Assembly: GCA_019671135.1 (NCBI GenBank)
Contig: JAHRHY010000008.1
Location: forward strand, 992,001-1,056,000
Direction: 5' to 3'
Length of the DNA stretch: 64,000 nucleotides
Source of the DNA: Linnemannia hyalina
Taxonomy: Eukaryota; Mortierellomycota; Mortierellomycetes; Mortierellales; Mortierellaceae
Shown: piece by piece, positions 9,598 to 13,078 of the stretch
Layout of the letters: each line of letters begins with the position of its first letter
How positions within the stretch are numbered: the first letter of the stretch is position 1
Notes under the pieces: generated by a model
Seen by the model: the letters and a program-made list of their open reading frames with translations, nothing else
Databases searched by the model: none
What the model was told of the DNA's origin: nothing
Program-made: the position numbers and the translations under genes

Positions 9598-12500
9598 CTA
9601 GGAGAACAGGTGCGGAGAAGCAAGAGAAAAGACCTTGTCTAGAATAGCACCACGGCGTCGTTCAACCATTCGAACATCATCCTCATCCCTTTCACCTTGC
9701 TGAGTCTGCAAATACCCCTCCCCTGCAGCATCAAGCAACAAAATCTCCTCCAACCCCACGGCAACACCCTTCATATCCACCTCCGTCCAGCAACTACGCT
9801 CAAACGTCGGCGCAGGAAACCCATAAGCCCCATTCAAGGTCGTCCGCATATGGATCCCATTCCACACCACCACATTCTCAACCTCCCTTGTCACCGAATG
9901 GCCCACTCGAAAGAACTGGCCATAATAAAACGCACAGATCAGGCGGATCATGAGGAGGGGGCCTAGTCTTGCAGAGAAGGGGATGATTGCGTGGCGCCAT
10001 TCTTCCTTGATGGTGATGGTCGCGGTGACCCGGGGATCGTTTTCGTGGGGGACGGTGATGGTGTGTTCGGGGATGTAGAAGAAGATGAAGTAGCAGCAGA
10101 GGCGGGGGTCGAACGTGTAGGACATTGTCGCGTTCGGCATTGGGCCCAGCTTCATTGCTCCTCTGATATTAGTACCCGACGACGATAGCGGCGATGACGA
10201 GTAGGCTCTTGTAGATCGACGACTGTCGACGGCAACAGGATGATCGACACTGATGCACGGAGTGTTGCAAGAAGGGCACTTGAGGAGAGTTTCCTTGCCC
10301 AAGAACCAGGTCTTGATACACCCCTCATGAAAGCAATGACAACATTTGTGTAGCTGCACAACCCTCCTATCCGCATCCCGGGGTAACCTCATAGAGCGGC
10401 GCTGGTTTCTGCCGACAGTGAGGAGCGGATCCGTGCAGATCGGACACGTCTCGGTTGCAAACCTCCATTGGTGGGACGCGTTGTTGACTGCGAGGAGAGG
10501 AGTGCCTGGGGGTAGTTTGAGGAGGAGACTGTCGAGCATGTTGCCCCCCAGTTTATCAATCTCGGCTTGTCTCTGATCGCGGTTGAAAACCACGGTCCCG
10601 GACCGACTGGAGATTCCTCGGATGGCTGGCTGGATCCATGGGTCGATCATATCCCACACAGTAGTCGTCCTTGTCGTTGGATGTGCTTTGTTGAAAATCC
10701 ACTCGATATAATCTACCAAGTGGCAGAACGGGCGCGCCGGAATTCGAGTACGAGGATTCACTGGCCAGAACTGAGGAGCAGGCATCTGTGTCTGAAAGAC
10801 GGCCATGGGGACAATATCCCACCAGCGGAAGTGCGGGCATCGTGACACAGTCGATGACGAAGACGACGACAAGGCCTGAGGCCGAAAGATGTCCATGAAT
10901 GGGTCTTTGATATGGCTTAGCAGATCCATCATGCTGATGGTGCTCTTGGCTGCCGTCAGGAGAGGCTTGAAGTCATCGGCCGAGGTTTTCAGGGCGTAAG
11001 CATAGTTTGTCACAGTGACCTCGATCGCGATCTGGTGTCGGTAGCAGAGATCCCGAAGGATGAGATCATGGTTGACCCACTTCAGGACTTGTTGCTGCTC
11101 CTGCGGCTGGGGTTGTCGTTGTGGCTGTTGCTGCTTTGGTTGAGAGGAGTTGGAGCACTGAAGCTGCTGCAGGGTTTCGGCAACGGATGCTCTATGCATC
11201 AGAAATGCATTCTCCAAATCCTCATTAAACGTGTATCCAAGATGGATCACTTGCTTGGCAGCAAACGCCCCCTGGGTAGCCATTTCCCTCTCTAAATCCA
11301 ACTCCTCGGCTGCCATTCGCTTCCTGTCGGCTGCCTCCAGCTCTGCAAGCTGTCTGTGTTCTCCAGCAGCCATGAGTCCCAGAGCGACCTGCTCTGGCGT
11401 CCAGGTAGTACCTGAATCGGCAATGATCGCATCCGCGTGCTTGACCTCCATGGCCAGTATCAGTTGGTTGCATCGACTCATCATTACATCGTCCCAGTGC
11501 CAGTTTCCGAGCGGGTAGAGCTTGTTGTATTTCTCGGTAAAGGACTCCCTGATCGTATTTCTCGCCATCTCCAGCTCAGAAATGTCCCACTCCCACCGCT
11601 CCAGCAGCAGCTCAAAATGTGGGATCTGCTGAAGTGGAGCATTGATCGCCTGGGCCTGAGTTTTGCGAAGCTCTTCAATAGACCGATGCTTCTCCTTCTG
11701 TCGGTCTCCAACTTCTTTCAAGGTCGCAGCCGTCTTCTTCAACATCACCAGTGTCTCCTGCGAAAGACAGATCGGACCATTGAGGAGATGAGATGGACAG
11801 GAGACGATCCAGTGCATGTCGGTGGGCGTTGCTGGGAACTGAAAATTCTGAAGGAGTTGGACGCGTCGTGTGCCTGCGAAGAAGATTCGGACACGACAGG
11901 GGCCAGGGGGAGTGTTCAGGAGCGACTCAAGTACCAGGGCCATTTCTGGGTCGGGCTTGTACCATTCTGTCAGCAGTGGATGTTCACTCTTGGTGTCGAA
12001 CGCGTCTGGATTGATATACTCGCCGTCGGCAGGAGTAGACGGTGCTGTTGCCGGTGGTGCAGTGACAAAGGACAAGACAGGGACCAGGATGTTGGTGTGG
12101 TTAAGGCTCAAAGAGCCGAGATCACCCTTGGAGAGTCGATAGTAGCTGGCCGGATCGTTTGTCGCCTTGAAGTGAATCACAGCCAGGGGAAGGATCTGCG
12201 CCTTGTCATACCTATCAATAGGATATGGAGTTAGTGAGTTCACATCTGTCATTTGCAGCCATGCTGCTGTGCACAAGCCTTGATATTCAACCACTAAACA
12301 AACAAAACAAATCAAAAAAAACTTACACGATCCATTCCTTCCAAAAATCAGTCTCAACCGCAGAATCAAAACCGTCAGGCAAGAAAAAGCTGTCCGACTT
12401 CAACACCCTCGCCTTTCGGTCCTCAGGCTCGACCAGAACCCGACCCAATAGAACCGCACAGACAAGTACAGCATACTCCTGCTCAATCTCTGTTTGCCGG

Positions 12501-13078
12501 TCAACGTACTGCATACACTTTTCGATCGAGTCTGAGAAGTAACACCCCGCACCGTAGTTCCGTCGATGGCTCAGGCGTGGGTCGAGGCCGTTGGTCAAGA
12601 TCGAGGGGAGGTTGGCTTTGCGTGTTCCGTGGAAGAGTAACTCATCCTTGAACAACAGTTTGGCCTCCATGGAGTGCGATGGTAGGGTAGTGCTCAAGAT
12701 GTCGCTAGCCGGGATGGCACCGGTACTGGCAAAGGCACTGGCACTGGTGCAGGTGACGGCGCCGCCGTTTATCATCATATTGTCGATGGCGGCGCAGAAG
12801 GCCAGCTGTTTTTCGTATTCGCGTCGTCGGCGAAGACGCTTTTCGATCTGGTATCGGTTCCAGGTGACGGTGTTGCTCAGAATCTGGATGCGTTGGATCG
12901 CGAAATCTGTAGGGCAGCGGGTGTGATTGAAGAAGTCGCTGCATAGAGTGTCGTAGAGGGTGGGGAGGGTGGGTCGAGAGAGATCGATGAAGGTTGGTGG
13001 TGCGGCTGGCGAGGTGTCGAAGAGGGGGATGAACTGGTCCGAGTACTCGGCCGTCTCTTTACTCTTCTTGAGCGCCAT
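9598..13078 (-). CDS. PARP - RING-H2 - Deltex C-terminal (DTC) fusion protein
   Basis: Two exons, 12327-13078 and 9598-12211, 1121 residues. Residues ~40-280 are a PARP catalytic domain: an N-terminal helix with TWNRYQIEKRLRRR, then FHGT (~150), YGAGCYFSDS and KEWIVYDKAQ, so His, Tyr and Glu of the H-Y-E triad are all in place. Residues ~300-835 are mostly helical and Gln-rich with a charged coiled-coil-like stretch; I recognise no domain there. Residues ~840-900 are a RING-H2 finger (CPIC ... CCHCFHEGC ... CPSC). Residues ~930-1090 match the Deltex C-terminal domain: a linker with MPNATMSY, then AFYYGQFFRVGHSVT, VVVWNGIHMRT and AYGFPAP. In animals the RING-DTC pair binds E2~ubiquitin and NAD+ and ADP-ribosylates ubiquitin. 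The predicted role is coupled ubiquitin ligase and ADP-ribosyltransferase. It shares a 391-base divergent promoter region with KXD1. Confidence 0.85.

Follow-up and report, generated by a model that had tools for sequence, protein, structure and literature searches.

The window analysed here, a stretch of 64,000 nucleotides of the soil fungus Linnemannia hyalina (Mortierellomycota; contig JAHRHY010000008.1, positions 992,001 to 1,056,000), encodes on its minus strand a predicted protein in which an ADP-ribosyltransferase (ART; PARP) domain, a helical middle region, a conserved domain termed FWP, a RING-H2 finger and a Deltex C-terminal (DTC) domain follow one another in this order. The PARP-RING-DTC protein is the product of one gene, which is conserved, and is a new arrangement of known parts. 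Judging from its sequence, it is probably a single-chain writer of a hybrid ADP-ribosyl-ubiquitin mark. The sequence-only reading of this DNA had described one fungal polypeptide ordered ART, RING-H2 and DTC, and the present analysis supports that description; at either end, the main residues of catalysis are intact.

The gene lies on contig C49 of an assembly of 51.5 Mb in 50 contigs, and both the coordinates first claimed for it, 9598 to 13078, and its continuous two-exon frame were right. Exon 1 (13078-12327, minus strand) encodes the N-terminus and most of the ART domain, and exon 2 (12211-9598, minus strand), a frame of 870 open codons, encodes the last ART strands, the helical middle, the FWP domain, the RING-H2 finger, the DTC domain, the tail and the stop codon. 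The intron between them (12326-12212, minus strand) is 115 nt long and reads GTAAGT...CTAAC...TAG, and its removal gives a spliced frame of 1121 amino acids plus stop. A 33-nt intron with an earlier TAG acceptor was dropped because the reading frame is lost, and the 115-nt intron was kept. The intron splits codon 251, which is the third codon after that of the catalytic Glu and lies inside the ART domain, and the stretch directly after it, YDKAQILPLAVIHF, is the remainder of that domain. In the paralogue on contig C12 (copy B), an intron of 153 nt occupies the identical position in the identical phase. The public record P0001 is identical to the window model over its first 1119 residues, and its annotators thus predicted the same intron. 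An open frame of 265 codons on the plus strand (11437-12234) runs antisense to exon 2 and probably just shadows the coding strand; an Rfam search of the window at gathering thresholds gave no match.

Protein searches returned 30, 48 and 36 matches, the first of them scoring the 7990 best candidates, and together yielded 49 different proteins, P0001 included. According to precomputed domains, PF00644 and PF18102 occur together in 40 of the 49. PF18102 is missing from P0009, and PF00644 is missing from eight proteins, namely P0004, P0005 and P0007, which have no ART motif before the splice point, and P0032, P0036, P0037, P0038 and P0048. The latter five are RING-DTC proteins of 681-864 amino acids without a PARP match and represent either split models or real ART-less forms; some of the proteins may thus genuinely lack an ART. 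When the ART segment alone served as query, 36 proteins were returned, all of which carry PF18102, and the PARP-DTC fusion is stable in the family. Because the intron cuts the ART fold, so that a split there would break the domain, and because the intron of paralogue B matches it in place and phase, two separate genes are very unlikely. A gene-model artefact, in which two adjacent genes were wrongly fused, could appeal to the nine proteins without one of the two Pfam domains and to the public record, which wrongly joins this very locus to RPL24, so that merging errors do occur; against the intron evidence and the 40 proteins carrying both domains, however, its probability is practically nil. 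The organism is named for 43 of the 49 proteins, spanning 12 genera as counted by eye, and we take the species beyond the two checked in the taxonomy to belong to Mortierellaceae. No named match fell outside Mortierellaceae in the three protein searches, which need shared five-residue words, were limited in lengths and also missed human Deltex and PARP proteins.

The ART domain (12139..12928, minus strand; about residues 51-275, interrupted by the intron) was recognized by the PARP profile of Pfam, as proposed for the translated model, at 2e-12 (47.5 bits against a cut-off of 26.7). Its start at about residue 51, before the Pfam match begins, was judged from the predicted model of the relative P0025, for which the structure model and a fold search predict an ART fold. 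In fold searches with two full-length relative models, the matches listed were PARPs, which bear on the ART domain only and not on the middle or the RING-DTC end. The best match in a profile search of the PDB was PARP12 (3.8e-7, full length), and PARP1 was matched at 2.3e-6 over about half. The catalytic residues His150 (12629-12631), Tyr180 (12539-12541) and Glu248 (12335-12337) are all encoded on the minus strand in exon 1. In a census alignment of 50 rows (the window model, the C12 paralogue and 48 database proteins, with P0001 excluded and gaps set aside), this H-Y-E triad is kept wherever the position is present, with His150 in 42 of 42, Tyr180 in 42 of 42 and Glu248 in 39 of 39. The third triad residue is thus retained, unlike the habit of replacement in clade 3 (PARP7 and PARP9-15), whose members, according to the part of the source cited here, nearly always lose the catalytic Glu, with one exception (PMC2964712).

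The RING-H2 finger (10264..10446, minus strand; residues 840-900) has the ligands C840, C843, C874, H876, H879, C882, C896 and C899 and the linchpin N900, and the eight ligands are invariant where present in the census. The linchpin position after the last CxxC is N in 41, S in 7 and Q in 1 of 49 proteins and is never Arg; human Deltex proteins also lack a linchpin Arg (PMC7615817). Of the three profiles proposed for checking the translated model, PARP and DTC matched above their cut-offs, whereas zf-RING_2 (5.6e-5, 23.8 bits) stayed under its cut-off of 27.3 in the window protein; it passes in the relatives P0008 (33.7) and P0025 (28.9). The DTC domain (9733..10161, minus strand; residues 935-1077) was matched by Pfam DTC at residues 986-1067 (6.2e-9, 36.6 bits against a cut-off of 25), inside the interval of about 930-1090 where such a match had been expected, and a whole-genome DTC search marked the same place (C49:1001763-1002014, that is, window 9763-10014). 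The DTC segment scored 86 against the DTC fragment of DTX2, compared with a maximum of 47 in 1000 shuffles as a chance control, and the family RING-DTC profile aligned with human DTX2 as one unit (1.9e-17, positions 3-207 of 219). H1038 (9850-9852), Y1047 (9823-9825) and E1061 (9781-9783), all on the minus strand, correspond to H582, H594 and E608 of DTX2 and to H707, Y719 and E733 of DTX3L, respectively. H1038 is kept in 49 of 49 proteins and E1061 in 47 of 48, the exception being the RPL24-merged P0003. In DTX2, formation of ubiquitin-NAD+ is impaired when H582 or E608 is mutated (PMC7615817). Three features of a Deltex E3 ligase, a RING directly followed by a C-terminal DTC domain, the catalytic His/Glu pair and a non-Arg linchpin, are thus present.

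From these conserved residues, we infer the steps by which such a protein may write its mark in cis. First, the ART domain would consume NAD+ to ADP-ribosylate either a target or itself. Within that molecule, the DTC pocket would then bind the attached ADP-ribose and the RING would recruit E2~ubiquitin, upon which H1038 and E1061 may activate the adenine-proximal ribose at its 3' hydroxyl, to which ubiquitin would be joined through an ester bond. Between the two ends, the long helices probably act as a spacer or drive oligomerization; for the FWP domain, our guess is the selection of targets or partners. PARG (two loci) and ARH (two loci) are encoded in the same genome and could reverse the mark. 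The mechanism appears plausible, and we see about an even chance that this Mortierellaceae enzyme, combining in one chain the donation of ADP-ribose and the Deltex-type transfer of ubiquitin onto it, is a dedicated cis writer of ADP-ribosyl-ubiquitin outside animals. We know of no earlier natural enzyme that unites these two steps. A role in a fungal innate response to endobacteria or RNA viruses, comparable to that of PARP14/PARP9/DTX3L in animals, is speculation and would fit the duplicated A copy in the window.

Several observations weigh against the proposed writer. The retained Glu is unusual for a clade 3-like ART (PMC2964712, as far as the cited passages go), so that the activity may be either mono- or poly-ADP-ribosylation, and Glu248 falls in a gap in three proteins having the His (42 versus 39). 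At the DTC end, the Pfam match spans only profile positions 50-133, and position 1047 (His594 in DTX2) varies, being Y in 29, F in 11 and H in 9 of 49 proteins. A macrodomain, the reader or eraser of ADP-ribose, was not found in a genome-wide, exon-wise search in which the controls gave signal. Furthermore, the position of the nicotinamide-contacting Ser of PARP1, which we take to be Ser904, is Cys188 in 42 of 42 proteins; aligned PARP1 and PARP12 both have Ser there, and NAD+ binding may thus differ in the fungal proteins. The invariant Cys188 would also suit an ART domain that is a pseudo-enzyme or regulator, leaving the Deltex end alone active. PARP13 is an inactive member of clade 3. The same holds for PARP9 (PMC2964712), but the H-Y-E triad of the fungal family is intact wherever present, in slow and fast paralogues alike, which makes a pseudo-enzyme highly improbable.

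Even with an active ART domain, the outcome could be ordinary ubiquitylation dependent on ADP-ribosylation, in which the DTC domain only reads ADP-ribose made by its own or another ART and the RING modifies lysines. DTX2 reportedly recruits ADP-ribosylated proteins for ubiquitination. Human Deltex proteins also automodify lysines (PMC7615817); however, both DTC catalytic residues are conserved, and the N, S or Q linchpin of all 49 proteins does not favour lysine transfer, so that we regard this outcome as unlikely. The RING-DTC end might instead ubiquitylate the 3' ends of RNA or DNA as DTX3L does, with an ART domain that may modify nucleic acid, given that ubiquitylation of single-stranded DNA by DTX3L requires H707, Y719 and E733 (PMC11460948), the equivalents of H1038, Y1047 and E1061. 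The same residues serve ADP-ribose, though, position 1047 is not always Tyr, a hint of the Tpt1 family in P0017 (E 0.11) is not significant, and no KH, RRM or other nucleic-acid domain appeared among the Pfam matches to the window protein and three relatives, all of which renders a nucleic-acid writer quite improbable. As for the bond itself, an older linkage between ubiquitin and ADP-ribose was described in earlier reports on DTX3L/PARP9 and RING-DTC, which are reviewed in PMC8883491; a geometry argument disfavours it relative to the 3' hydroxyl bond, and we consider it hardly probable at all. The single-chain writer acting on the 3' hydroxyl is the reading retained here.

The protein had earlier been labelled a fused counterpart of the PARP9/DTX3L pair. 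This label was rejected in favour of a PARP14/DTX3L-like one, because PARP9 has Q-Y/S-T/S in place of H-Y-E, is inactive (PMC2964712) and contains two macrodomains (PMC13224862), whereas the window protein has H-Y-E and no Pfam match to a macrodomain. By analogy, active PARP14 together with DTX3L is the nearer comparison. In the human pair a clade 3 ART acts with a RING-DTC ligase, a clade 3-like ART would do so in the fungal protein, and the equivalents of H707, Y719 and E733 of DTX3L are found in the fungal protein. PARP14, PARP9 and DTX3L are separate interacting proteins (PMC13224862), whereas the fungal protein is one chain, and its ART domain keeps the catalytic Glu, whereas PARP14 has Leu and PARP9 is inactive. 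A further difference from the human proteins is that no macrodomain, WWE, KH or RRM appeared among its Pfam matches; for WWE and KH the window protein and three relatives were covered with matches up to E 1, a search that divergent KH folds in the middle region could escape. Human DTX1, DTX2 and DTX4 resemble it in a RING followed by DTC, the catalytic His/Glu pair and the non-Arg linchpin, but carry WWE in front, where the fungal protein has the ART domain, the helical region and the FWP domain. Fungal PARP6/8-type PARP-UBCc proteins (clade 6A) likewise join an ART to a C-terminal ubiquitin-system domain, but this domain is E2-like, the catalytic Glu is absent, and no RING or DTC is reported in the cited parts of the sources (PMC2964712, PMC4245714, PMC1266365); in the window protein, Pfam gave no UBCc match to E 1. 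The U-box-macro-PARP protein of Dictyostelium also combines an E3-type domain and PARP in one chain, but its U-box is N-terminal, it has a macrodomain, and no DTC is reported in the cited part of the source (PMC2964712).

Since PARP-UBCc fusions are known, the linking of a PARP to part of the ubiquitin system is in itself no novelty for fungi, and because many relatives are labelled 'putative E3 ubiquitin-protein ligase dtx2' in databases, the Deltex part had already been noticed by naming. In the accessible text of the open-access literature, with subscription papers and preprints outside the scope, no description of PARP and Deltex in one chain was found, which agrees with the earlier remark that no described fungal protein with this domain order was known. 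The sites and routes of ADP-ribosyl-ubiquitin formation in cells are still under study, and animals have the active ADP-ribosyltransferase and its Deltex ligase on two distinct proteins that interact. As evolutionary evidence, a family in which the two ends have stayed fused, main catalytic residues included, indicates that both steps belong together; it also shows that fungi have a Deltex-type ligase whose catalytic pair is intact, and it offers a single purifiable protein for testing both steps.

In the middle region, which had been left without assignment, Pfam gave no significant match from the end of the ART to the RING, either in the window protein or in three relatives, the weakest mention being MMS21_N in P0025 (E 0.77). 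A fast-evolving long-helix region (11044..11703, minus strand; about residues 421-640), probably a coiled-coil or bundle, was seen in the secondary structure of the predicted models of the relatives P0006 and P0025. Just before the RING, the FWP domain (10519..10866, minus strand; about residues 700-815) has the motif WW..P...FWP..PR.R...DY..W...DP...SSR.G.V.F.R..RQ.E, with 21 invariant columns across 9 sequences. Compared with PDB sequences, it gave no significant match, the best (E 0.056) being a goose-type lysozyme, which was taken as chance. On these sequence comparisons, FWP is a possible new domain family. Compared with L. elongata P0002, a partial protein with 119 of 143 DTC positions aligned, identity was 91% in ART 138-275, 94% in RING and 94% in DTC, and 77% in ART 51-137, 70-85% in the middle parts and linkers and 90% in the first 50 residues. 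Compared with paralogue B of the same genome, identity was 54% in ART, 50% in RING, 55% in DTC, 36% in FWP and 14% in the coil. The two ends and, to a lesser degree, FWP are thus held, whereas the spacer is not.

The genome contains three DTC loci, namely the window gene (copy A), copy B on C12 with 1062 residues, and a B-like copy (62% identity to P0029 over the longest stretch) with which C7 begins (1-2273), truncated by the end of the contig and disrupted by frame breaks and stops. This last PARP-DTC-like copy is probably dead. Besides A and B, ART matches marked a third PARP locus, also on C12. Phage DNA was searched as well and, as expected, yielded no match. In trees built on 40 of the 50 alignment rows, with midpoint roots only and many forks open, A, P0003, P0006 and P0008 group together with both domains (ART 94/88, RING-DTC 100/97). 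The phylogeny of both domains suggested in the sequence-only reading thus upholds this group, and the rest agrees only partly: 33 B-like rows come together in the RING-DTC tree (87/83, open), whereas the ART tree places A with P0011/P0014 (97/95), in a group lying among B-like rows.

At the 3' end, the RPL24 gene lies at window 8649-7786 on the minus strand, and P0001 continues past residue 1119 into ribosomal protein L24. P0006 and P0008 end in ...LFS, as the window frame does, and P0020 ends in ...LLFRAG; the L24 extension of P0001 is thus probably an annotation merge, and the RPL24 ending was rejected because P0006 and P0008 end as the window frame does. NCBIfam returned L24 only for P0001 and no match for P0025. 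In both P0001 and P0003 (L. elongata), RPL24 is fused to the PARP-DTC gene under the name '60S ribosomal protein L24', and these are likely annotation errors. The public models P0012 and P0016 (1565 and 1647 amino acids) contain PARP-RING-DTC together with an aspartyl protease domain (PF00026), which is possibly a merge or a real extension.
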